From contig OY743170.1 of assembly GCA_963555705.1 (NCBI GenBank), forward strand, positions 12,873,096-12,937,095: a stretch of 64,000 nucleotides of DNA. The letters run 5' to 3'. This document shows positions 3,438 through 61,024 of the stretch, piece after piece. The notes beneath the pieces are model-generated. The model saw nothing but the letters and a program-made list of their open reading frames with translations. It had not been told where the DNA came from and did not search any database. Position 1 is the first letter of the stretch. The number at the start of each line of letters is the position of its first letter. The DNA is from Ligustrum vulgare. Its lineage: Eukaryota > Streptophyta > Magnoliopsida > Lamiales > Oleaceae. Both the position numbers and the translations under genes were made by a program.

Positions 3438-3660
3438 AGAGTGTGTTTGATAGCCATTGCGCGAATTCCATCGAAAATGTATTTTTCACTCAAATTTTTC
3501 ATATTCCAATCAAACATACTTTTATTTTCCATGGAATTTAAGTTTCACCCACTCACTATTTAACCACATTTTCCTTGAATTCAAGGATTTAGAATTCCTT
3601 AGGTGTTTATGGGAATTGAAATTTCATCTCATTTTTCACCCTCCAATTAAACACACAGAG
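3438..3660. mobile_element. MITE-like TIR element (about 220 bp)
   Basis: The left end reads AGAGTGTGTTTGATAG and the right end, reverse complemented, CTCTGTGTGTTTAATTGG; the shared core GTGTGTTTRAT makes short imperfect terminal inverted repeats. The interior is AT-rich and non-coding. Such GTTTGRT-bearing termini are common in plant Tourist- or hAT-type MITEs. No clear target duplication was seen. Confidence 0.5.
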
Positions 3661-10365: not shown

Positions 10366-11982
10366 TGATAAGTGCTTTATTAGCACGTATCTAATTCACT
10401 TATTATCTTATTTTGTTATTGGTTTGATCCTATTGAAGCATCGTTTAATGCATTTTCACTTATTGTGTTATGTAAGGTCAAAAAGAAGAAAAAGAAAGGA
10501 TATAGGACCAAAGAAATACAAAAAAAATCAAGAAGTGAGGTTCAAGGGCATATTCAAAGAGCTCCAAATTAATAATGACATGTGGGAAGAAGATTAGATG
10601 CAAAAATTATGGTCAAAGAAGGTTTGGGGTGAAGTTAGAAATCAAAAACCCGCAAGGATTGTAATCATGAATTTTAGTCATAGATTGAAGCTCAATTTTG
10701 TCATAGAAGACTTTCGAATTTGGGAAGAGCTATTTCACAAAAAAATTGTATATATTTGAGTTTTCTTTCCAATGCAACTTGAATCACCACAATCTGACTT
10801 CGGAAGAGAAAGTTATGACCAAAACATCGAACAGAGGCGCTTCTCGACAGAAATGCACTTACGGCCGTAAATGTTAAAGTTACGGCCGTAAATTCCAAAT
10901 TTCGAAAATTTTCAGTAGCTTACTTACGTCCGTAATAAGGAAAGTTACGGCCGTAACTTTCTCGCGAAGAAATTTCCTTATCTGATTCAAGGTCTATCTT
11001 TGGTATATCTTTGGGGTAAAGTTAGGGCACGATTTTGAGAGTACTAAATGAGCAAAATCACCACAAAAAGGAGGCTGGACATTGAGGAAAATTGAGAGAA
11101 AAATATAGAGCATTCTTGAAAGATTTTCAAGCGCAAGAATATCAACGACAATGGAATTCATGAAGCAACTTGAAGAATCTACCACAATCATGCTAGGCTA
11201 AATTCCATATCTTGTTCAAAGGGGAAGTTGTGTTACCTTAATTATGTTATTTTCTTTTCCTACAAATTAGTAGCGTGAATTTATTATTTTATTTCAATTG
11301 TTGGATTATTATGTTTTGAATGTTCATTGAGTTTATTTGATTAATAGTTTAATTTGGCCAATTGGATTATTGATCTTTGGATTCATGAATATGCTATGTT
11401 TAGATTCTTGATCCGTAATTGTCATTGAATCTTTACTTTAGTAGCAAATAAATCTCGTGCAGGTTTAGTAATAATTCAACTTGGATTGATTAATTCGAGC
11501 TTGTGAAATTAACGATCCAATTCAATCCATTCTTCTAGATTTTCATACTAGTCGTGTATTAAATCCTAAGAGCTTGTTTAGGATTGTCCGTGGCTAGAAT
11601 TGGTTCGAAGAGCTTATTTTGAATCAATATACATAAGGAAGAATTTAGATAATTAGAGCTTGTTGATTATTTATGATTGATAATTGAATAGGGATATAAA
11701 CACGTTACAAGGAAATGTATAACATTAATTGGTGGTACAACCGAACCCGAGAACAAGATTTCTTCTCATATTATTTCTCTAGTCATATTTAATGATTTAT
11801 TTTTATGCATATTTTCATTAAAGCAATTTCAAACAACAAACCCCTCATTCCATTCTATTTGATCATACAACTAAACTTTCTGTTCCTCGTGGGATCGACC
11901 CTTACTCTCGCTACTACATTATTAATTAACATTTAGCGAGTAAGGAACTATTTATTATTTTGGTGCATTGCGACACGCATCA
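10366..11982 (+). mobile_element. Solo LTR (1617 bp), Ty3/gypsy Tat/Athila-like
   Basis: It starts TGATAAGTGC and ends GACACGCATCA, flanked by the perfect 5-bp duplication GCGTC. No internal region, primer-binding site or polypurine tract is present, so it is a solo LTR left by LTR-LTR recombination. The 3' part contains a CTCGTGGGATCGACCC segment typical of Athila/Tat-type LTRs. Four copies of the palindrome TTACGGCCGTAA (one with a mismatch) lie at 10859-10956. Removing it rejoins the surrounding TGTGACCTAAGGCGTC/ATATGTGACC minisatellite. A truncated second copy is at 39424-40272 on the opposite strand. Confidence 0.92.
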
Positions 11983-22312: not shown

Positions 22313-23425
22313 CCATCAAAGGTTTTTTATGAGCCTAGGAGGGGAAACGGGTTTTCTTTTCTTACCAAAATGGTGACTAGAAAGAGGTGGTTCAAGAATG
22401 GAGCGGCAATCGGTAAGAGTCACCACTCCATATTTCTTCTTTGTTTGATCAGGATTGGCTTTAGAAGAATGCGCCGCGATTAATCCAGCAGCTGCTAGAG
22501 CTCCACACAGTTTAATGCCTCTAGATTTGCAACCCTGGATAGATTTACAAAGTTGAAGTTTCCTTAAAAGGAAAAATATTGTTACATATGCTAAACAGAT
22601 TAAACAAAGACTTACGACAAGAATCCTGTCGGTGTCCTGCGTGTTCATTTGTAGCCTCACAACCTCGGAACACCTGGGCCACTTCACATTCTTAAACTTC
22701 AAATTTGTAAGTCTCAATGAATTCACTGAATATCCCAACATGTCCATGCCATGAACCCAGAATGTTTTCTTTGCCAACCCACTTGGAATGAGATCCTCAA
22801 TTCCCAAATTACCCTCCTTATCATTCTCTATTCCTTTCTTCACCTCGCCTTTCTCACCGTCCTTCGCCAGTTCCATCAGCTCCCTGAGCAAGGACACGGC
22901 CGTGGTCCGGTCGCATATCACGGTGTGAAACCGAAGCATGATGACACATTTTGCATCAGGCAATGTGTATACACTAGCAAACATTACATCAATGCCATTG
23001 GGTGGGAAAGAACTGGGATCGGACCATTTGTTGCTGTTCAGTTCATGCTGCAAGAGTAAATGAAATGGAGAAAGATTTTTATAGTTTCCATTGTCGCTTA
23101 GGTTTTTAAGGAGCTCTAAGGTTGATGACGGATCGAACGACTTGATTTTTACAGGCGGAGCAGCCTTGGAGTTGAGGAATGAAAACTCTTTCGTTGTGGT
23201 GTTATAGTGAAGTTTGGAGCGGAGGAGAGGGTGGCTACTTTGGAGCTTAGCAAGTACTTTATGCATAACCGAGATCACGAATGATGGCTTACTCATTTGC
23301 AGCCCCAATACCGTGATGCCTGTGTGACATGTCACTGCACGACACCAACTATGTTCAGTTCTACTCAGTACTCTGGATTCAGGTTCTAACATTTTAGCCT
23401 TCTGGTCTACATGAGCTCCTGCCAT
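21728..23425 (-). CDS. Acyltransferase-fold (CAT/condensation superfamily, PapA5-like plant subgroup) protein, three exons
   Basis: Exons are 23425-22616, 22534-22366 and 22182-21728, giving 477 residues in one frame. Intron 1 (22535-22615, 81 bp) is GTAAGT...ATCCAG. Intron 2 (22183-22365, 183 bp) is GTAAGA...TTCCAG and splits a Gly codon. The start is the ATG at 23425; the three codons before it begin with GTG. N-terminal SRTEHSWCRA (about 21-30), SHPLLRSKLHY (64-74) and the central RFHTVICDR (165-173) are hallmarks of the condensation/alcohol-acetyltransferase type fold. GIKLCGALAAAGLIAAHS (276-293) and FYHSAVLNIHT (328-338) belong to the C-terminal half. The protein probably transfers or binds acyl groups in the cytosol, but substrate and activity are unknown. 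The usual HHxxxDG motif reads H167-T-V-I-C-D172-R, so the catalytic His position is Thr. No frameshift is visible, so the gene looks intact. Confidence 0.85.
22183..22365 (-). other. Intron 2 of the acyltransferase-like gene, with an A-homopolymer
   Basis: GT...AG intron. A run of about 30 T on the plus strand (22279-22311) gives a long A run on the transcribed strand. The branch/polypyrimidine region before TTCCAG is normal. Confidence 0.8.
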
Positions 23426-23545
23426 CTCGTACACGACGGTCGGGTGGACAGACCGATGGACGAGCGAGACGGAGTTGGATAGTGGTTGTGTTCTAAAGAG
23501 AATGTATTAAAAAGCAATAAATGTTACGAGTACAAATAGAAATTA

Positions 23546-38542: not shown

Positions 38543-39423
38543 TAGGGGTGGGCAAAAAAACCGGAACCGATATGACCGAACCGGAACCGAACCAAAAAAA
38601 TCGGAACCGTATGGTTTTAAAAAAATAAAATAGGAAATCGATTTTGGAACCGAGAACCGATTAGTTTTTGGTTCGGTTCTCGGTTCCGCCTTTAGAACCG
38701 AAAAATCGAACTTAGAACCGATCTTTGATCCTTACTTTTTTTTTTTTTTTTTAGGATCTTAATTGGTTGTCATAAAACTAAAAATTAAAAGAATTTGTAT
38801 TTTTTTGGATAAAGTGAAAATGATTAATTTCTTTTTATGAAATTTGTTACGTCTCCACCTCATTGTAACCTTTAACATCACACTTGGACTAAAATTATTA
38901 GTAAATGAAAATCGAATGACACTAACTTATTAATAAGCGAAGTTGTAAATGATCACGATGAAGTTAATTAAATATTTAAATACAAATATAAAATAATTAA
39001 TAATAATGCATTTAAAACTCATGATTCATCCCACAAGTTTACTATATTGTCATGCTTGAAAAACCTTCTAGGCCGTTTCCTATTTTTGTTTATGAATATC
39101 TTCCGTTTCATGGAGAATCCTATACTTTCTTTGTGGTGAAAGGATTTTTGAAATCCTTGATCTTAGTATATTCGGTAGAAATTTATTTCAGGTTATTGAC
39201 TCACTTCCTGAGACCTGATGCTCATCGATAAGGCTCTCGAAAAATATTTATTATTTTAAAACCGAATTAGAACCGAAACCAAACCAAAACCGAATGGTTT
39301 GGTTCTGGTTTGGTTCTTGCGATTCAATGGAACCGAATGGTTCCATTTTACAAGAACCGAAAAAATATGGTTCGGTTCCGGTTCTTGAGATACCCGAACC
39401 GAACCACCCGACGCCCACCCCTA
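38543..39423. mobile_element. TIR element with CCGAACCGAACC-rich subterminal arms
   Basis: The perfect 11-bp TIR TAGGGGTGGGC / GCCCACCCCTA bounds 881 bp. Both arms are made of GGAACCGA/GAACCGAACC and the complementary GGTTCGGTTC repeats, so each arm can fold back. The AGGGGTGGGCAA terminus is common in plant hAT-like non-autonomous elements. The centre is non-coding. The two flanks do not form a clean target duplication. Confidence 0.75.
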
Positions 39424-40272
39424 GAACAAGATATGGAATTTAGCCTAGCATGATTGTGGTAGATTCTTCAAGTTGCTTCATGAATTCCATTGTTGTTGAT
39501 ATTCTTGGCTTGAAAATCTCCCAAGAATGCTCTAAATTTTGCTCTCAATTTTCCTCAATGTCTAGCCTCCTTTTTGTGGCTATTTTGCTCCTTTAATATT
39601 CACAAAATCGTGCCATAACTTTACCCCAAAGATATATCAAAGATAGACCTTGAATCAGATAGGGAAATTTCTTCGCGAGAAAGTTACGGCCATAACTTTC
39701 ATTATTACGGTCGTAAGCAAGCTTCTGAAAATTTTCGAAATTTAGAAGTTACGGCCGTAACTTTACCATTTACGGCCGTGATTGTATTTCTGTCGAGAAG
39801 CGCCTGTGTTCGATGTTTTGGTCATAACTTTCTCTCCTGAAGTCCGATTATGGTGATTCAAGTTGCGTTGGAAAGAAAACTCAAATATCTACAATTCTTT
39901 GTGAAATAGCTCTTCCTAAATTCGAAAGTCTTCTATGACAAAATTGAGCTTCAATCTATGACTAAAATTCGTGATCACAATTCTTGCGGGTTTTTGATTT
40001 CTAACTTCACCCCAAACCTTCTTTGACCATAATTTTTGCATCTAATCTTCTTCCCACATGCCATTATTGATTTGGAGCTCTTTGAATATGCCCTTGAACC
40101 TCACTTCTTGATTTTTTTGTATTTCTTTGGTCATGTTTCCTTTCTTTTTCTTCTTCTTGACCTTACATAGCACAATAAATAAAAATGCATTAAACGATGC
40201 TTCAATAGGATCAAAACAATAGCAAAATAAGATAATAAGTGAATTAAATATGTGCTAATAAAGCACTTATCA
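39424..40272 (-). mobile_element. Truncated LTR of the 10.4-12.0 kb family
   Basis: Reads on the minus strand from TGATAAGTGCTTTATTAGCAC (ending 40272) and is colinear with the first about 855 bp of the solo LTR at 10366-11982. It breaks off inside GAACAAG, exactly at the border of the TIR element. It retains the TTACGGCCGTAA-type palindromes at 39684, 39705, 39749 and 39770. Confidence 0.85.
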
Positions 40273-47590: not shown

Positions 47591-48660
47591 GGGTTAATTT
47601 TACAAACGGTCACTGAAGTTCCATAATTTTAGTAATAGTCACTCAAGTTACAAAAAGTTTTGGCAAAAGTCACTCGTGGTAAAACTCGTCAAAAATAAAG
47701 ATTGAAGACTTAAAGTATAAGCTTGCATAGAAAAAAATTGCAGGGGAGGCCCATGTCCTCATCTCCTATACTGCCACCACCTAATCAGCCGCCCCCATCG
47801 CTGTCATTTCATAATCACAATTTGTACTGGAATCTGGTGCAATTTTACATAAAAAACTAATGCGATTTGGCACTAGATTTAGGGGAGGGAGGCTTCTCCC
47901 TTCATTTTTCCAGTGCAAAATCGCATCAAAATCTAGTGCGCCCCCTCGTTTTTTCGATTATAAACAGCACCAAAATCTGGTGTGATTTGGAACCAGTTGT
48001 TTGGGGGGGGGGGGGAGGTTTCTCCCCCCATTTTCGGTGTGATTTCGATTTCTTCTATTTGCACTCGTTTTCGTTCCTTTCTTCTAGTTTAGCTTCGAAT
48101 CACCAAGTTTTACCTAATAAATAATAAATACACAAGATTAAATCATAATTAATAAAAAAAATCATAAATATCTATATTTAAAGCAGGTCCCAAGCTAAAT
48201 TAAAAAAATGGCTTCTATAGTGAGTAAGTGACACTTTTTTTAAAAAAAAAAATATTAACCTGATTATAGGGCCGAAAAAATCGTTAAAAGTACTAACTAA
48301 TCAATACTAACCAAACAAAATAACTACTTAAGTTGTTGAATAAAAATAAAGTCAAACAACATAACCAATCAAGAATAATTGATTAAAAGATTAATATTCA
48401 AATGGGGGTGGGGGTGGGGGTGGGGGTGGGGGTGAGGAAGGAAATTGGGTATCCTGAATTTTTGAGCCCTAAGTTCATGCTTGTTGAGCCTACCATCTGG
48501 TACGACTTTGTTTTAACTTTTAAGGGTCTAAATAAGAGTATAAAATGCATTTATCAAGTATTACAATGAAAATTAACTTTAGCAAGTATTACAATGAAAA
48601 ATAACTTTAGCGATTATTGATGTAATTACTCAAAATTGCAGTGACCATTAATAGAACTAG
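47591..48660. mobile_element. Possible MULE-like non-autonomous element, partly inside triplication unit 1
   Basis: The left end GGGTTAATTTTACAAACGG is followed by GTCACTGAAGTT, AATAGTCACTCAAGTT and AAAAGTCACTC, typical of plant MULE-type termini. A diverged inverted counterpart (TTAATGGTCACTGCAATTTTG on the minus strand) ends near 48655. GCACTAGATTT/AAATCTAGTGCG stretches at 47866-47940 form an internal foldback. The assignment is tentative. Confidence 0.4.
48003..48030. repeat. G13 tract with adjoining C-tract palindrome at the triplication breakpoint
   Basis: GGGGGAGGTTTCTCCCCCC lies at the left edge of the tandem array. The C-rich half is retained at each unit start. Confidence 0.9.
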
Positions 48661-49591
48661 TGTTACACCCGTGCGATGCACGACCATTTATTATTCACAT
48701 ATATTAAATTTATATGTTAACATATGAAATGAATATTTAATTAAAAATGAGAAACGAAGGAAGACAATTAATTACAAAAAATGTACATTGCACATACCTT
48801 TTTTTTAAAAAAAAAAAATTGTTACGGTTCGTACGTTTATCGTTCCAGAAACTTCTTTAAATATTGTAATTTGAATTGATTTAAAACTTAAAATAGAAAC
48901 GAAAAATTACAGTTAAATAGAATTTGTAATAAGTAAAAAAATAGATATATATGTGATATAAGCTTATAATTTTATTAAAATAAAAAGAAAAATCAAAATT
49001 ATATAATTAAATTCTGTATAAACCGGTCTATAACGTGAAACCACCACAATGACAGAATTTAAAAAAATTAAAAAATTATTTATACAAACTATCAAAATAT
49101 TTAAAACTTATTCAATAATTTCCAATACAGCGTGACTTTTCATTTTCCACCGAGCATTCGAAGTGTTACGTTATAAAAAAAAAACTATTTTTATACGTTT
49201 TAAATAAATGTAAATACTACACCATATTTTGAAATATTATGAGTTTACTAACATGCATTTATTTTTATTTTGATAAAAATTAATTAAACTAATTGTTAAA
49301 GTCAATAATATTTTTATTATTTAGACTTAATATATTAAACATAAATAAATGAACAAAATGAATAAATAAATAAATAAAACTAATTAAATAAATAAATAAA
49401 CAAAATGAGTAAATAAATTAATAAGTGAACAAAATGAGCAATATAGCTGTCAATTCGAATTGAAATTAATTATTTATGACCAAATTAAATTTAGTTAAGA
49501 AATTATAAATATCATTACTTAAATAAAATAATTTTGAAATAGTGTGAAATGTGAAAAAATTAAAATGTACAAAATAAGATTTTTATATTGA

Positions 49592-50596
49592 GGGGGGTGT
49601 ATTCAATTATAACTTTTAAAGATTTTTGGAGACTTTTTTAAGTGAGTGACTTTTGTGGATTTCATGAACTTTCAAGCGGCTTCTACGAATTTGCTTAGAA
49701 TTAATAAAAAGTCATCCCGGATTTCTGTAGAGTACTTCTATATATTTTTTTAAAAACTTTCAGAGACTTCAAAGACTTTCCTTGTTTAAGAAAAACATGT
49801 AAAATATAATATTTTAAACAAATTCTTATATATCCAAACTATTCATGGAATGCAACGAAACAAACCATATCTTTCATATCAATAAAAAATTATTTTAAAA
49901 ATTTTTAAAAAAAATTATGTTAGATTAACAAAAATTAATAAAAATTCTTATTCGTTTTCATGGTCTCATACAATTTTTTAAATTTTTTTTTTTTAAGTTT
50001 GATTCAACATTTTTATGTTAGATTATCGAATAATATAATAATAAAAACTCATATTCACTTTCATGGTCTGATTCAAAAATTGTCCTTAAAAGAAATTCTT
50101 GGCAACCTTCTAAATCAACAACAGTAACTCCATCTAATGAACTCAATTTTTTTATTTTATTTTTTTAAAAAAAGAAAATTGCTGAATGGATTAGAATCCA
50201 TAAATCTGTGATGTTGAAATTGAGGGAAAAGATGATACGTTAGTTGTCAATGATTTGGTGCTACATGGGCTAGGTGAAAGTGGGATCGGGGTGGGGTGAT
50301 GTCTTGGAATCTTGGCAAATCTCAAGGTGGATAAGTGATTGTTTTCGAGATTAATTATGTGTAATTTCTAACCAAAAGTCTCTAAAAGTCACTCTCAATT
50401 GAATATACCGTGATTTTTATAGACTTTTTAAAACTCTACAAAAGTCTTATTGAATACATCTAAACTTTTAGAGAGTCTTTAAAATTCTCAATTCAGTAAA
50501 TCTAAATTTTTAGAGAGTCTTTAAAAGTTTCAATTGAATACACCTAAATTTTTAAAGTCTTCAAAAGTCTTTAAAAGTCTCAATTGAATATACCCC
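49592..50596. mobile_element. TIR element with GGGGTGTATTCAATT ends, present in each tandem unit
   Basis: The left GGGGGGTGTATTCAATT and the right, reverse complemented, GGGGTATATTCAATTGAGA bound about 1005 bp. ACTTTTAAAGACTTTT subterminal repeats are clustered near the right end. The same element is at 53207-54211 and 56821-57825 in the other units. Similar GTGTATTCAATT termini are common in plant non-autonomous elements. Non-coding. Confidence 0.75.
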
Positions 50597-50738
50597 TTTT
50601 ACTCTTTGATGTGATTTCAGAAAATGTGATTTTTAAATTATTTGACCATTAATAATAAAACACCATTTTTATATTGATGGCTACACATAGAATTTATACT
50701 ATTAAGAACAACAAATAAATAAAAATATTAATTGAACT

Positions 50739-50741
<3 letters not shown>

Positions 50742-50791
<50 letters not shown>
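50742..50791. repeat. (TA)25 microsatellite
   Basis: 25 TA units in unit 1. Unit 2 has 25 (54357-54406) and unit 3 has 27 (57971-58024), so it is a marker of divergence between the units. Confidence 0.95.
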
Positions 50792-50794
<3 letters not shown>

Positions 50795-51641
50795 GCTTTC
50801 ATATTTATCTAAATTTTATATTCACATTTAACACTAATACAATATGCATTCACACTAATCCACTTTGCATTCACACTGTTTAATTTTATGCGAACTTACT
50901 ATTTATTGAACGAAAAAGGGAGGAAATTTGCTTTTAAAAACTACCCAACTTTTATATATAAGGTTGACGTTGAGCAAGTGAATGTAAGTAGATGTGGAAA
51001 AAAGAACCAAAACCAATAGAATTGAACTGTTTTGTTCGAACTTTCTTTAATTTTTAATGGTTTTGGTGGTTAGAACCTAGAACATTCTAATTCTGATTAT
51101 GGTACCAGAACTGAGAATCGAGAGTCGACACTAAGAACCAAACCTTATTCAATTTCTAAAATACTATTATTTTACGCAATCATTATAAATTATAAACAAA
51201 TTTATAAATAACACAATTTTTCAAACTACTTTTTAACCACAAATTTCTCTCTTCAATTTTCATCCATATATTTTACCTAGAAAATACCAAAACAAAAAAC
51301 AAAAAAATGGAGGCAGAAAGCAGCCGAACACTCCGTAAATTATATGTTGAGCCATTTCATTTTATTTTTTAAAAAAGTTGCACTACAAAAAAAAAATAAA
51401 AAATGAATGCAATTTTCTTATTCCCAAGCTTCATCTAACTTATGAGTTTTTAGAGTCAACTTTTTGTATAGATTTTGAGCGTTTATTAATAGACCATTTA
51501 TAGTGGGTTTAGTAGCCAATTTAACAGGTCATTTGCACAAGAGGAAATTACTCACACGTGCTTTTGAACTACACAATTCAAAAATCATATTTAAAAGTAT
51601 TTGTACAAAAATCAGGTCCTCTATTCCCACAACAAACTATT

Positions 51642-54353
51642 TCTCCCCCCATTTTCGGTGTGATTTCGATTTCTTCTATTTGCACTCGTTTTCGTTCCTT
51701 TCTTCTAGTTTAGCTTCGAATCACCAAGTTTTACCTAATAAATAATAAATACACAAGATTAAATCATAATTAATAAAAAAAATCATAAATATCTATATTT
51801 AAAGCAGGTCCCAAGCTAAATTAAAAAAATGGCTTCTATAGTGAGTAAGTGACACTTTTTTTAAAAAAAAAAATATTAACCTGATTATAGGGCCGAAAAA
51901 ATCGTTAAAAGTACTAACTAATCAATACTAACCAAACAAAATAACTACTTAAGTTGTTGAATAAAAATAAAGTCAAACAACATAACCAATCAAGAATAAT
52001 TGATTAAAAGATTAATATTCAAATGGGGGTGGGGGTGGGGGTGGGGGTGAGGAAGGAAATTGGGTATCCTGAATTTTTGAGCCCTAAGTTCATGCTTGTT
52101 GAGCCTACCATCTGGTACGACTTTGTTTTAACTTTTAAGGGTCTAAATAAGAGTATAAAATGCATTTATCAAGTATTACAATGAAAATTAACTTTAGCAA
52201 GTATTACAATGAAAAATAACTTTAGCGATTATTGATGTAATTACTCAAAATTGCAGTGACCATTAATAGAACTAGTGTTACACCCGTGCGATGCACGACC
52301 ATTTATTATTCACATATATTAAATTTATATGTTAACATATGAAATGAATATTTAATTAAAAATGAGAAACGAAGGAAGACAATTAATTACAAAAAATGTA
52401 CATTGCACATACCTTTTTTTTAAAAAAAAAAAATTGTTACGGTTCGTACGTTTATCGTTCCAGAAACTTCTTTAAATATTGTAATTTGAATTGATTTAAA
52501 ACTTAAAATAGAAACGAAAAATTACAGTTAAATAGAATTTGTAATAAGTAAAAAAATAGATATATATGTGATATAAGCTTATAATTTTATTAAAATAAAA
52601 AGAAAAATCAAAATTATATAATTAAATTCTGTATAAACCGGTCTATAACGTGAAACCACCACAATGACAGAATTTAAAAAAATTAAAAAATTATTTATAC
52701 AAACTATCAAAATATTTAAAACTTATTCAATAATTTCCAATACAGCGTGACTTTTCATTTTCCACCGAGCATTCGAAGTGTTACGTTATCAAAAAAAAAC
52801 TATTTTTATACGTTTTAAATAAATGTAAATACTACACCATATTTTGAAATATTATGAGTTTACTAACATGCATTTATTTTTATTTTGATAAAAATTAATT
52901 AAACTAATTGTTAAAGTCAATAATATTTTTATTATTTAGACTTAATATATTAAACATAAATAAATGAACAAAATGAATAAATAAATAAATAAAACTAATT
53001 AAATAAATAAATAAACAAAATGAGTAAATAAATTAATAAGTGAACAAAATGAGCAATATAGCTGTCAATTCGAATTGAAATTAATTATTTATGACCAAAT
53101 TAAATTTAGTTAAGAAATTATAAATATCATTACTTAAATAAAATAATTTTGAAATAGTGTGAAATGTGAAAAAATTAAAATGTACAAAATAAGATTTTTA
53201 TATTGAGGGGGGTGTATTCAATTATAACTTTTAAAGATTTTTGGAGACTTTTTTAAGTGAGTGACTTTTGTGGATTTCATGAACTTTCAAGCGGCTTCTA
53301 CGAATTTGCTTAGAATTAATAAAAAGTCATCCCGGATTTCTGTAGAGTACTTCTATATATTTTTTTAAAAACTTTCAGAGACTTCAAAGACTTTCCTTGT
53401 TTAAGAAAAACATGTAAAATATAATATTTTAAACAAATTCTTATATATCCAAACTATTCATGGAATGCAACGAAACAAACCATATCTTTCATATCAATAA
53501 AAAATTATTTTAAAAATTTTTAAAAAAAATTATGTTAGATTAACAAAAATTAATAAAAATTCTTATTCGTTTTCATGGTCTCATACAATTTTTTAAATTT
53601 TTTTTTTTTAAGTTTGATTCAACATTTTTATGTTAGATTATCGAATAATATAATAATAAAAACTCATATTCACTTTCATGGTCTGATTCAAAAATTGTCC
53701 TTAAAAGAAATTCTTGGCAACCTTCTAAATCAACAACAGTAACTCCATCTAATGAACTCAATTTTTTTATTTTATTTTTTTAAAAAAAGAAAATTGCTGA
53801 ATGGATTAGAATCCATAAATCTGTGATGTTGAAATTGAGGGAAAAGATGATACGTTAGTTGTCAATGATTTGGTGCTACATGGGCTAGGTGAAAGTGGGA
53901 TCGGGGTGGGGTGATGTCTTGGAATCTTGGCAAATCTCAAGGTGGATAAGTGATTGTTTTCGAGATTAATTATGTGTAATTTCTAACCAAAAGTCTCTAA
54001 AAGTCACTCTCAATTGAATATACCGTGATTTTTATAGACTTTTTAAAACTCTACAAAAGTCTTATTGAATACATCTAAACTTTTAGAGAGTCTTTAAAAT
54101 TCTCAATTCAGTAAATCTAAATTTTTAGAGAGTCTTTAAAAGTTTCAATTGAATACACCTAAATTTTTAAAGTCTTCAAAAGTCTTTAAAAGTCTCAATT
54201 GAATATACCCCTTTTACTCTTTGATGTGATTTCAGAAAATGTGATTTTTAAATTATTTGACCATTAATAATAAAACACCATTTTTATATTGATGGCTACA
54301 CATAGAATTTATACTATTAAGAACAACAAATAAATAAAAATATTAATTGAACT

Positions 54354-54409
<56 letters not shown>

Positions 54410-55256
54410 GCTTTCATATTTATCTAAATTTTATATTCACATTTAACACTAATACAATATGCATTCACACTAATCCACTTTGCATTCACACTGTTTAATT
54501 TTATGCGAACTTACTATTTATTGAACGAAAAAGGGAGGAAATTTGCTTTTAAAAACTACCCAACTTTTATATATAAGGTTGACGTTGAGCAAGTGAATGT
54601 AAGTAGATGTGGAAAAAAGAACCAAAACCAATAGAATTGAACTGTTTTGTTCGAACTTTCTTTAATTTTTAATGGTTTTGGTGGTTAGAACCTAGAACAT
54701 TCTAATTCTGATTATGGTACCAGAACTGAGAATCGAGAGTCGACACTAAGAACCAAACCTTATTCAATTTCTAAAATACTATTATTTTACGCAATCATTA
54801 TAAATTATAAACAAATTTATAAATAACACAATTTTTCAAACTACTTTTTAACCACAAATTTCTCTCTTCAATTTTCATCCATATATTTTACCTAGAAAAT
54901 ACCAAAACAAAAAACAAAAAAATGGAGGCAGAAAGCAGCCGAACACTCCGTAAATTATATGTTGAGCCATTTCATTTTATTTTTTAAAAAAGTTGCACTA
55001 CAAAAAAAAAATAAAAAATGAATGCAATTTTCTTATTCCCAAGCTTCATCTAACTTATGAGTTTTTAGAGTCAACTTTTTGTATAGATTTTGAGCGTTTA
55101 TTAATAGACCATTTATAGTGGGTTTAGTAGCCAATTTAACAGGTCATTTGCACAAGAGGAAATTACTCACACGTGCTTTTGAACTACACAATTCAAAAAT
55201 CATATTTAAAAGTATTTGTACAAAAATCAGGTCCTCTATTCCCACAACAAACTATT
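51642..55256. repeat. Tandem unit 2 of 3 (3615 bp)
   Basis: Head-to-tail copy of unit 1. The junction CAACAAACTATTT|CTCCCCCC is identical to the unit 2/3 junction. An 80-codon ORF (51503-51745) exists only because it reads across this junction. Confidence 0.95.
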
Positions 55257-57967
55257 TCTCCCCCCATTTTCGGTGTGATTTCGATTTCTTCTATTTGCAC
55301 TCGTTTTCGTTCCTTTCTTCTAGTTTAGCTTCGAATCACCAAGTTTTACCTAATAAATAATAAATACACAAGATTAAATCATAATTAATAAAAAAAATCA
55401 TAAATATCTATATTTAAAGCAGGTCCCAAGCTAAATTAAAAAAATGGCTTCTATAGTGAGTAAGTGACACTTTTTTTAAAAAAAAAATATTAACCTGATT
55501 ATAGGGCCGAAAAAATCGTTAAAAGTACTAACTAATCAATACTAACCAAACAAAATAACTACTTAAGTTGTTGAATAAAAATAAAGTCAAACAACATAAC
55601 CAATCAAGAATAATTGATTAAAAGATTAATATTCAAATGGGGGTGGGGGTGGGGGTGGGGGTGAGGAAGGAAATTGGGTATCCTGAATTTTTGAGCCCTA
55701 AGTTCATGCTTGTTGAGCCTACCATCTGGTACGACTTTGTTTTAACTTTTAAGGGTCTAAATAAGAGTATAAAATGCATTTATCAAGTATTACAATGAAA
55801 ATTAACTTTAGCAAGTATTACAATGAAAAATAACTTTAGCGATTATTGATGTAATTACTCAAAATTGCAGTGACCATTAATAGAACTAGTGTTACACCCG
55901 TGCGATGCACGACCATTTATTATTCACATATATTAAATTTATATGTTAACATATGAAATGAATATTTAATTAAAAATGAGAAACGAAGGAAGACAATTAA
56001 TTACAAAAAATGTACATTGCACATACCTTTTTTTTAAAAAAAAAAAATTGTTACGGTTCGTACGTTTATCGTTCCAGAAACTTCTTTAAATATTGTAATT
56101 TGAATTGATTTAAAACTTAAAATAGAAACGAAAAATTACAGTTAAATAGAATTTGTAATAAGTAAAAAAATAGATATATATGTGATATAAGCTTATAATT
56201 TTATTAAAATAAAAAGAAAAATCAAAATTATATAATTAAATTCTGTATAAACCGGTCTATAACGTGAAACCACCACAATGACAGAATTTAAAAAAATTAA
56301 AAAATTATTTATACAAACTATCAAAATATTTAAAACTTATTCAATAATTTCCAATACAGCGTGACTTTTCATTTTCCACCGAGCATTCGAAGTGTTACGT
56401 TATCAAAAAAAAACTATTTTTATACGTTTTAAATAAATGTAAATACTACACCATATTTTGAAATATTATGAGTTTACTAACATGCATTTATTTTTATTTT
56501 GATAAAAATTAATTAAACTAATTGTTAAAGTCAATAATATTTTTATTATTTAGACTTAATATATTAAACATAAATAAATGAACAAAATGAATAAATAAAT
56601 AAATAAAACTAATTAAATAAATAAATAAACAAAATGAGTAAATAAATTAATAAGTGAACAAAATGAGCAATATAGCTGTCAATTCGAATTGAAATTAATT
56701 ATTTATGACCAAATTAAATTTAGTTAAGAAATTATAAATATCATTACTTAAATAAAATAATTTTGAAATAGTGTGAAATGTGAAAAAATTAAAATGTACA
56801 AAATAAGATTTTTATATTGAGGGGGGTGTATTCAATTATAACTTTTAAAGATTTTTGGAGACTTTTTTAAGTGAGTGACTTTTGTGGATTTCATGAACTT
56901 TCAAGCGGCTTCTACGAATTTGCTTAGAATTAATAAAAAGTCATCCCGGATTTCTGTAGAGTACTTCTATATATTTTTTTAAAAACTTTCAGAGACTTCA
57001 AAGACTTTCCTTGTTTAAGAAAAACATGTAAAATATAATATTTTAAACAAATTCTTATATATCCAAACTATTCATGGAATGCAACGAAACAAACCATATC
57101 TTTCATATCAATAAAAAATTATTTTAAAAATTTTTAAAAAAAATTATGTTAGATTAACAAAAATTAATAAAAATTCTTATTCGTTTTCATGGTCTCATAC
57201 AATTTTTTAAATTTTTTTTTTTTAAGTTTGATTCAACATTTTTATGTTAGATTATCGAATAATATAATAATAAAAACTCATATTCACTTTCATGGTCTGA
57301 TTCAAAAATTGTCCTTAAAAGAAATTCTTGGCAACCTTCTAAATCAACAACAGTAACTCCATCTAATGAACTCAATTTTTTTATTTTATTTTTTTAAAAA
57401 AAGAAAATTGCTGAATGGATTAGAATCCATAAATCTGTGATGTTGAAATTGAGGGAAAAGATGATACGTTAGTTGTCAATGATTTGGTGCTACATGGGCT
57501 AGGTGAAAGTGGGATCGGGGTGGGGTGATGTCTTGGAATCTTGGCAAATCTCAAGGTGGATAAGTGATTGTTTTCGAGATTAATTATGTGTAATTTCTAA
57601 CCAAAAGTCTCTAAAAGTCACTCTCAATTGAATATACCGTGATTTTTATAGACTTTTTAAAACTCTACAAAAGTCTTATTGAATACATCTAAACTTTTAG
57701 AGAGTCTTTAAAATTCTCAATTCAGTAAATCTAAATTTTTAGAGAGTCTTTAAAAGTTTCAATTGAATACACCTAAATTTTTAAAGTCTTCAAAAGTCTT
57801 TAAAAGTCTCAATTGAATATACCCCTTTTACTCTTTGATGTGATTTCAGAAAATGTGATTTTTAAATTATTTGACCATTAATAATAAAACACCATTTTTA
57901 TATTGATGGCTACACATAGAATTTATACTATTAAGAACAACAAATAAATAAAAATATTAATTGAACT

Positions 57968-58026
<59 letters not shown>

Positions 58027-58874
58027 GCTTTCATATTTATCTAAATTTTATATTCACATTTAACACTAATACAATATGCATTCACACTAATCCACTTTGC
58101 ATTCACACTGTTTAATTTTATGCGAACTTACTATTTATTGAACGAAAAAGGGAGGAAATTTGCTTTTAAAAACTACCCAACTTTTATATATAAGGTTGAC
58201 GTTGAGCAAGTGAATGTAAGTAGATGTGGAAAAAAGAACCAAAACCAATAGAATTGAACTGTTTTGTTCGAACTTTCTTTAATTTTTAATGGTTTTGGTG
58301 GTTAGAACCTAGAACATTCTAATTCTGATTATGGTACCAGAACTGAGAATCGAGAGTCGACACTAAGAACCAAACCTTATTCAATTTCTAAAATACTATT
58401 ATTTTACGCAATCATTATAAATTATAAACAAATTTATAAATAACACAATTTTTCAAACTACTTTTTAACCACAAATTTCTCTCTTCAATTTTCATCCATA
58501 TATTTTACCTAGAAAATACCAAAACAAAAAACAAAAAAATGGAGGCAGAAAGCAGCCGAACACTCCGTAAATTATATGTTGAGCCATTTCATTTTATTTT
58601 TTAAAAAAGTTGCACTACAAAAAAAAAATAAAAAATGAATGCAATTTTCTTATTCCCAAGCTTCATCTAACTTATGAGTTTTTAGAGTCAACTTTTTGTA
58701 TAGATTTTGAGCGTTTATTAATAGACCATTTATAGTGGGTTTAGTAGCCAATTTAACAGGTCATTTGCACAAGAGGAAATTACTCACACGTGCTTTTGAA
58801 CTACACAATTCAAAAATCATATTTAAAAGTATTTGTACAAAAATCAGGTCCTCTATTCCCACAACAAACTATTT
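55257..58874. repeat. Tandem unit 3 of 3 (3618 bp)
   Basis: Third copy. It shares C at the position that is A in unit 1 (56404) and the shorter GGGGGT run with unit 2, but has 27 TA repeats. It ends at CAACAAACTATTT, after which unique sequence (TTAAACCCTAATAATTTTC) begins. Confidence 0.95.
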
Positions 58875-59060
58875 TTAAACCCTAATAATTTTCATCCACC
58901 ATATCCTTCTCTTCTCTCGCACAACCACCATATCCACCATATACCTCTTTTCTCTCACACAACCACCACTCCGACGCCGTCTCCAACACCTTTCGTTGGA
59001 TCTCCGCCATGACTTCCCCTCCCCCGAACCTCCGCAGCGATGCCGCGGCTTCCATGGAAG

Positions 59061-60798
59061 TGTTAAGGAATTAGATTAACATGGAAATATATTGTTATAT
59101 TATATATTCTTATCATTAAAGATTTTATATTTAGATTGATTTAGCCAAAGATTGTATTGGATTATATTTAGATGATTTAGATTAGATTGATTTAGTTTCC
59201 TTTGTCTTCAAAATCCTTGTATTATATATATTTGTCAAAGATCATTAATAAAAGTGTACATTCGCTTATATTCTTTTTTATATGGTATCAGAGCTAGTGT
59301 AAGACTCTCACGAGCAACTCTAGTTTTTCTTCTCCTTCTTGGCCGTTTTTGACATGTACCAATCTGCCTCTTCCCTCACATATTCTTCCCCTCCTCTTCC
59401 AGCAGCCTACAATCTGTTTCAACAATTTTTTTAACAACCTTGATAAACTCATTCCAACAACTGATTATTCTTTCTAGCTTCCTCCTTTTTCTTTCCAACG
59501 ATTTGACTAAATCAATCTAAATATAAAATCTTTAATGATAAGATTATATAATATAAAAACATATTTCCATGTTAATCTAATTCCTTAACATGCCCCCCCC
59601 CCCGAAAGATAGAGTTTCCGTCGGAAACTGTAATCTTGGAACGAAAATAAATTGATGGAGCTGTAGACATAATATTGTAGTGGAAAGGCTGAAAGAATTG
59701 TAGATGAAAGAATTTACTGAAGATAATAAACGATGAAGGTAAAGGGAAGAATATTGGGAGAGGAAAGATTGAAAATTCATGAGGTAGCGAAGGAAGAAAA
59801 GCAAAGAAACTAGAGGCCAAGTAGGGGCCAAAAACTGAGCAGCAGTAGGTGGCACATGGATGGCTAGGAGGAGCAGCGGGTCAACACCGATGAAAGAAGT
59901 GAAGCATCCGGAAGCACGGATAACTGAGCAGAAGAATTGAAGAGGCCGCTGGAGATTTGTGAAAAAAAATTGGGAAGAGTTCGAAAGAGTTGGGGCTAGA
60001 AAGTGTGAGGAAGAAAATAGGAAAGAAAGAAGAAGAATTGGCAGGAGCCAGCCAATGAGAAGAAAATAAATATAAGGGATATGAAAGGCTAAAAATTCAT
60101 TAGGAAATGAAGGAAGAAAAGAAAAGAAATTGAAGGAAATATAAGATGAAGGAAAAAGTGGAGATAATGTGGAGAAGGGATGGAGACAAGGGCTACTGGA
60201 AGCTGTTTGATGTAAGACAAAAGATATGAGGGGGAAAGAAAAAAGAAAAGAGGAGAAATGCCGAGATGAAGTTTGGCCGAGAGGAGATTGTTGAGGTTAA
60301 AGGAAGACTGCTAGAGAAAAAAATGCTGGACAGAATAACGGACTGCTGGAATGAGGTTAAGGAAGACCGATGGAAAGAAAAAGGAGGAAGAATAACTGGT
60401 TGCTGGAATAAGTTTATCGAGGCCATTAAAAAAATTGTTGAGACAAATTGTAGGCTGCTGGAAGAGGAGGAGAATAATATGTGAGAGAGGAGGCTGAGTG
60501 GTGCATGTGAAAAATGGCCAAGAAGGAGAAGAAAAACTAGGATTGCTCATGAGAGTCTTACACTAGCTTTATACCATATAGAAAAGAATATAAGAGAATG
60601 CACACTTTTATTAATGCTCTTTGAAAAGTATATATAGTACAAGAGTTTTGAATAGAAAAGAAACTAAATCATTCTAATCTAAATCATCTAAATAAAATCC
60701 AATACAATCTTTGGCTAAATCAATCTAAATATAAAATCTTTAATGATAAGAATATATAATATAAGAATATATTTTCATGTTAATCTAATTCCTTTACA
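59061..60798. mobile_element. Palindromic TRIM-like LTR element
   Basis: The left arm has a 222-bp LTR (59061-59282, starting TGTTAAGGAATTAG), the primer site TGGTATCAGAGC (59283-59294) and a leader to about 59500. The right arm is the same sequence inverted: LTR 60577-60798, degraded primer site 60566-60576 and leader down to about 60340. The minus-strand element continues through a purine-rich non-coding interior to an 11-G polypurine tract (59593-59603) and the first about 85 bp of a 3' LTR (59590 to about 59505), where it switches into the left arm. Flanks are GGAAG (59056-59060) and AGAAG (60799-60803). It encodes no proteins; ORFs inside are short and unsupported. Confidence 0.85.
59283..59294 (+). 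promoter_or_regulatory. Primer-binding site TGGTATCAGAGC
   Basis: Intact 12-base initiator-Met tRNA primer site directly after the left LTR. The right-arm copy reads TGGTATAAAGC. Confidence 0.85.
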
Positions 60799-60803
60799 AG
60801 AAG

Positions 60804-61024
60804 TAACGCCTTCGCTGCTGAGGTGTGACTATGGCAGTGATGCTACTGGTAATGGTGGTCCTGACCGTAGTGATGGTGCTGGGCGATTTAGTGGTGGAGT
60901 GGCGGCTGTAGTTGTGGTGCAGGTGATTGAAGATAATGGTGGTGGGTGGCTATGGTGGTGAGGTGATTCTGGACTGGATGTGGTGGTGGTAGTTAGGGTG
61001 CCATCGGGTGGTGGTGATGGCTGT
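60804..61024 (+). repeat. GGTGGT-rich low-complexity DNA
   Basis: GGTGGT/GTGGTG-type sequence. The last about 45 bp (GGTAGTTAGGGTGCCATC...) recur just after the LTR/primer site at 62690. Confidence 0.7.

Follow-up and report, generated by a model that had tools for sequence, protein, structure and literature searches.

A mirror-image TRIM block with U3 at both outer ends in Ligustrum vulgare, a highly probable single insertion through two like ends

The window, a 64,000-nucleotide stretch of Ligustrum vulgare DNA, lies at C3:12873096-12937095 of a 1.385-Gb genome in 51 contigs. Near its right end, a block at 59061-60798 carries a U3 start at each outer edge, and inward of each edge follow an LTR, a primer site and a leader (Table 1). 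An ordinary LTR insertion pairs a U3 outer end with a U5 one; here both are U3. Elsewhere in the window, a long inverted repeat (10366-11223 and 39418-40272, about 28–30 kb apart) consists of pieces of 90–393 nt that are 92–97% complementary, perhaps two copies of another transposon. A 372-aa open reading frame on the minus strand (22316-23434) resembles, by eye, a BAHD/condensation-type acyltransferase.

The two arms of the block were aligned with each other, the right one inverted, as the sequence-only reading of this DNA had suggested. Positions 59061-59288 and 60571-60798 were 93% complementary over 228 nt, and 59292-59475 and 60385-60568 were 87% complementary over 184 nt; a separate comparison gave a 90% match between the arms across about 410 nt. 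The arms differ at 17 of 222 LTR sites (7.7%) and 24 of 206 leader sites, with 9 gap columns in addition. This alignment bore out that reading's coordinates and its assignment of both outer ends to U3, the right primer binding site (PBS) being degraded. Between the arms stands a third, partial LTR, 93% identical to 60710-60798 and 96% complementary to 59061-59149. The minus-strand copy, described earlier as a small TRIM (terminal-repeat retrotransposon in miniature; the name is expanded in an excerpt of PMC6934838) with a G11 polypurine tract (PPT), is a nearly complete one and has that tract. Its LTRs are short, it has a PBS, and its PPT lies beside the U3 start. TRIM LTRs are about 100–400 bp in size. 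The copy does switch into the inverted leader within its 3′ LTR, as had been proposed, at 89 bp rather than at about 85 bp. The joint falls at about 59498-59511, where an 11-bp stretch partly resembles both parents. No open reading frame of 150 aa or more was found within the block, a blastn search of the whole block against the window returned no further copy and just short weak matches, and Rfam gave no family at gathering score.

Table 1. Features of the mirror-image block, its target site and the two other candidate same-end insertions
Feature	Position	Strand	Remark
Left part of multicopy host repeat (target)	58772-59060	+	
Left target duplication copy, GGAAG	59056-59060	+	Once in 24 of 27 paralogous sites (GGAAG 23, CGAAG 1)
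Left-arm LTR, 222 bp	59061-59282	+	Outer end is U3 start TGTTAAGG; inner end ...TATA (U5 end)
Left-arm PBS, TGGTATCAGAGC	59283-59294	+	Like the motif after the 5′ LTR in ordinary copies; presumably of the initiator-tRNA-Met type
Left-arm leader, up to the joint	59295-59500	+	
Partial 3′ LTR of minus-strand copy	59502-59590	-	First 89 bp of U3, starting at 59590
Polypurine tract, G11	59593-59603	-	Then CA and U3 start; C11 on the plus strand
Minus-strand TRIM body and leader	59604-60565	-	No long reading frame
Right-arm PBS, TGGTATAAAGC	60566-60576	-	Degraded
Right-arm LTR, 222 bp	60577-60798	-	Outer end is the inverted U3 start, ending at 60798
Right target duplication copy, AGAAG	60799-60803	+	One base different from the left copy
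Right part of host repeat (target)	60804-61020	+	Lacks a stretch present in paralogs
Candidate U3/U3 insertion	C6:24144151-24144723		AGGAG on either side; assigned on the duplication
Candidate U5/U5 insertion (L046)	C4:6353982-6355641		AGGAT on either side

Ordinary copies of the element, which the sequence-only reading had proposed to look for, were found in the genome with U3-to-U5 ends and 5-bp duplications. The 222-bp LTR had at least 42 genome matches (40 of 184 first-look candidates scored) and the TRIM body at least 90 (40 of 95 candidates scored). These copies run from TGTTAAGG to ...TATA, then PBS, leader, body, ...GGGGCA and LTR; in one example ...GGGGGCA passes directly into TGTTAAGG. 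Other subfamilies start differently. A script could place the ends of 28 copies; the 5-bp duplication was perfect in 11 of these 28 and matched at four or more bases in 13, and the remainder of the 28 are truncated, partial, nested or, like L046 below, were given a mis-set end. Copies with a perfect duplication and two LTRs measure about 1.0–1.9 kb and have direct-repeat LTR pairs. AAAAC flanks the nearest ordinary copy (C4:61722078-61723965) on both sides, and the 5′ LTR of this copy holds an insertion of about 215 bp (L035, C4:61723524-61723965).

The block interrupts a multicopy host repeat with a GC-rich, possibly coding stretch; when the window flanks were joined and translated, one frame was open through the junction, though comparison with the repeat copies tests the site better. 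This repeat overlaps the right edge of a tandem array (48019-58874) of about three copies of a ~3.6-kb unit (spacing 3614–3621) with 100% identical stretches of 300 nt and 414 nt; the array arose very recently or else was produced by the assembly. A genome search with the left-flank repeat gave at least 46 matches, with 40 of 45 candidates scored, and we examined 27 paralogs (L058-L084), seven from search loci and 20 fetched. In 24 of them the target 5-mer is followed directly by 12 bases resembling the right flank, 7 to 10 of the 12 being identical to the window sequence after AGAAG (TAACGCCTTCGC); 12-mers drawn at random from these loci attain at least 7 in 1.1% of cases. Three paralogs are off this pattern, L066 (6 of 12), L067 (no GGAAG) and L068 (0 of 12), and count against it. 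Since right-flank-like bases directly follow the 5-mer in 24 of 27 paralogs, both U3 ends edge one 5-bp target; two like ends bordering one empty target is thus what the window presents beside these 24 paralogous sites. The target duplication and the empty site left on removal of the block, both expected from the sequence-only reading, are matched by these intact sites within one genome. Its count of four matching bases out of five between the flanks also agreed with ours. Matches of at least four bases occur in 2.8% of random 5-mer pairs from the window, and a duplication of 4/5 rather than 5/5 counts against the reading that we prefer. Judged from its ends and flanks, the block is very probably a single integration with a 5-bp duplication.

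The right flank is short of paralog sequence by 138 bp relative to L062 and by 169 bp relative to L060; the alignment took in seven paralogs, and gap size was measurable in these two, where both sides of the gap could be aligned. Two independent insertions in opposite orientation, with later deletion of the DNA between them, would yield the same block, and that stretch of host repeat is truly missing at the right. The missing stretch begins 12–17 bp inside the flank, beyond the duplication and away from the element, which does not suit such a history. The bases adjoining the duplication are kept, so the gap is better read as a separate deletion, and the need for a separate deletion of 138–169 bp near the insertion itself counts against a single integration. 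Furthermore, because the start of the right flank resembles the bases after the 5-mer in 24 of the 27 paralogs, two insertions would have to share an identical 5-bp site, hit twice by chance. We consider the two-insertion history very improbable, also in view of the following counts.

A genome screen was made with patterns for the U3 start, which covers the start of one subfamily (50 matches; 1 in the reversed control), and for the U5 end (78 matches; 0 in the reversed control). Linking matches within 3 kb gave 79 loci, copies with more than three mismatches at both ends falling outside this count; 33 loci had two or more motifs and 46 a single one, so many of the 79 are fragments or diverged copies. 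Motifs on both strands occurred at three of the 79 loci (the window and one locus each on C6 and C4), where 0.007 would be expected under independent insertion. The joint chance of the duplication matches at all three is about 1.6e-7, given the window base composition. Both figures argue against paired independent insertions. From the arrangement of their ends, all three mixed-strand loci appear to be same-end insertions. Thus the search for more inverted copies, also proposed at the outset, yielded two further candidate same-end insertions, both with perfect 5-bp duplications (Table 1).

At the C6 locus the left arm is 149 bp of U3, and the inverted right arm comprises a full LTR, PBS, leader and part of the body. 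The arms differ at 8 of 149 sites (5.4%), and the parents overlap by 2 bp at the joint. The C4 locus, L046, begins on the left with 46 bp of the inverted LTR 3′ end (positions 222 to 177) and has a normal U5 on the right. Its interior holds a 449-nt slice of TRIM body followed by U5, PBS, leader, body, PPT and LTR. The slice has 16 further genome matches, at least two of which lie, by coordinates, within other TRIM copies (C23:27042003 and C1:23720118). When the L046 flanks were joined with one AGGAT, all 40 scored places (of 2562 candidates) aligned unbroken across the junction; the host sequence was taken for a gypsy-type element from reading its translation by eye. Same-end insertion of this TRIM looks like a recurring accident of element copying. 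A further U3/U3 candidate, L039 (C16:5752204-5756933), was not counted; its 5′ LTR is truncated, with a match that starts at position 35. At 2740-2828 of that locus a PPT is followed by 10 bp of U3 and then by inverted U3, which again puts a U3 start at the outer end, and inspection of the flanks by eye showed no clean duplication.

Inverted structures are a known artefact of long reads, and a folded-back read or a collapsed repeat could in principle have produced the block. A folded-back read would give near-identical arms, which disfavours this origin: divergence between the window arms is 7.7% in the LTR and higher in the leader. The target duplication is present, and the other cases carry duplications of their own. 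We regard an assembly or read artefact as scarcely credible, the least probable of the explanations weighed here. The LTR pairs of ordinary copies differ by 1.4–11.9% (18 pairs); the two LTRs of the L045 pair begin differently and may be separate insertions, and the range is the same without them. Because the values for the window and C6 arms fall inside this range, the divergence of the arms is like that of the LTRs of one insertion.

In an LTR tree the left- and right-arm LTRs were sisters (support 0.83). The 89-bp internal LTR fell outside this two-arm group, which counts against the explanation that we favour. All three window LTRs have T at a site that is C in most of the 50 U3 starts; seven of these 50 carry T, the window's three among them, and the four carriers outside the window likewise count against it. 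Leader differences amounted to 25 of 190 sites between the arms, and to 23 of 199 and 20 of 190 between the arms and the C4:61722078 copy. As the arm leaders are no closer to each other than to that copy, one RNA or two co-packaged RNAs are both possible sources. Uneven divergence along the arms had at first suggested to us that two co-packaged RNAs were involved. Over their initial 139 bp the LTR arms have 5 differences, against 36 in 289 elsewhere (Fisher p 0.003, with a cut chosen post hoc). A test of even distribution gave p 0.055 over the whole arm and 0.028 within the LTR, and the family mean pairwise difference is 0.113 in the first LTR part and 0.139 in the rest. The claim was dropped in view of the post hoc cut, the p of 0.055 and the lower first-part divergence across the family.

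Concerted integration through two like ends is almost certainly how the window block arose. The palindromic cDNA joined through two U3 ends that was suggested at the outset is supported by the paralogous empty sites and by the C6 and C4 cases, and the strand switch that was to have made it is an inference. We think it probable, on balance, that a strand switch during reverse transcription made the cDNA. In reverse transcription as set out in PMC3187697, the minus strand is started beside the PBS (the U5 end) and the plus strand at U3. Plus strands, primed at the polypurine tract, begin at U3, and this would account for U3 at both ends of the product. Once beyond the polypurine tract and 89 nt into the 3′ U3, a growing plus strand would switch onto another plus strand at the leader, copying it to its 5′ end. 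The resulting mirror-image TRIM cDNA would be joined to the chromosome via its two U3 ends, with a 5-bp duplication. By the same logic, a minus-onto-minus switch would give a U5/U5 molecule such as may have been inserted at C4. There the third piece, the 449-nt slice, means that a single switch is insufficient, and one more would be required. In both clean U3/U3 cases the joint partner lies inside U3, at 89 in the window and at 132 in C6. Two plus strands may coexist in U3 during displacement synthesis. The joints are equally compatible with end joining, which counts against the strand-switch reading.

Two explanations built on end joining were weighed. Integrase may instead have paired the U3 ends of two cDNAs at one target, their trimmed inner ends being end-joined afterwards. 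The outcome would be indistinguishable in its outer ends and duplication, with short microhomology where the inner ends meet, and this route covers U3/U3 and U5/U5 cases alike. It has an in vitro precedent: in PMC10209032, Rous sarcoma virus integrase is used in a concerted-integration assay with short gain-of-function U3 DNAs alone (GU3 18R). It also requires a chromosome break mended with little loss, and random trimming disfavours a joint partner inside U3 (89 and 132, just two cases). We consider pairing of two molecules at the target unlikely, if a serious contender. Alternatively, two broken cDNAs may have been end-joined before integration, the linear two-U3 molecule then being integrated normally. 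The 2-bp overlap at C6 and the partly shared 11-bp stretch in the window suit microhomology joining, and the three-piece C4 case resembles serial joining. Such joining requires two suitably broken cDNAs, whereas template switching during reverse transcription is, according to excerpts of PMC3187697, frequent in retroviruses. Joining before integration therefore seems to us rather improbable, and a strand switch remains our preferred source of the cDNA.

Because annotation of LTR elements usually looks for a U3 end paired with a U5 end, it will probably miss same-end insertions or call them nested debris. If they are recurrent, they would be fossil evidence, from in vivo events, that a plant retroelement integrase takes two like ends, and they would record strand switching between DNA strands of the same sense. 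The inverted LTR promoters at such loci could give hairpin RNA and silence the family. We put forward, tentatively and with slightly less than even confidence, the wider proposal that TRIM copying regularly gives rise to same-end integration (three of the 79 loci here), in which the kind of end marks the strand that switched, that its products form a distinct class missed by annotation, and that they are natural sources of LTR hairpin RNA.

No U3/U3 or U5/U5 chromosomal insertion was recognised in a literature search limited to open-licence papers and in part to excerpts of them, which makes this a weak negative. In autointegration a cDNA end joins the same cDNA; inverted circle products result, and there is no free end pair to produce a chromosomal target duplication. 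The likeness of the window block to retroviral autointegration (PMC2644782) is that integrase works on retroelement DNA in an unusual arrangement. The block is like a TRIM in its short LTRs, PBS, PPT and short interior, and the ordinary copies in this genome have 5-bp duplications; ordinary TRIM copies, unlike the block, begin with U3 and end with U5. Mu killer of maize, an inverted duplication of a transposon, silences its own transposon family (cited in PMC11624286). It too is a natural inverted copy, and the block could similarly be transcribed into a hairpin. Mu killer derives from a DNA transposon, whereas the block is an LTR element whose silencing role is conjectural. Head-to-head or nested LTR insertions are suggested as possible LTR hairpin sources in the same paper (PMC11624286). 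The grass complexes of Sabot and Schulman (2007; PMC1950507) share 5-bp duplications and similar outer LTRs with the block, and for these abnormal template switching was proposed, with the fused cDNA integrated once. In those complexes three LTRs follow one another in direct order, the internal one being shared, and the outer ends are the ordinary pair, with U3 at the left and U5 at the right. The window block has a single duplication as they do, and it differs from them in its inverted arms, its like outer ends and its internal LTR cut to 89 bp.
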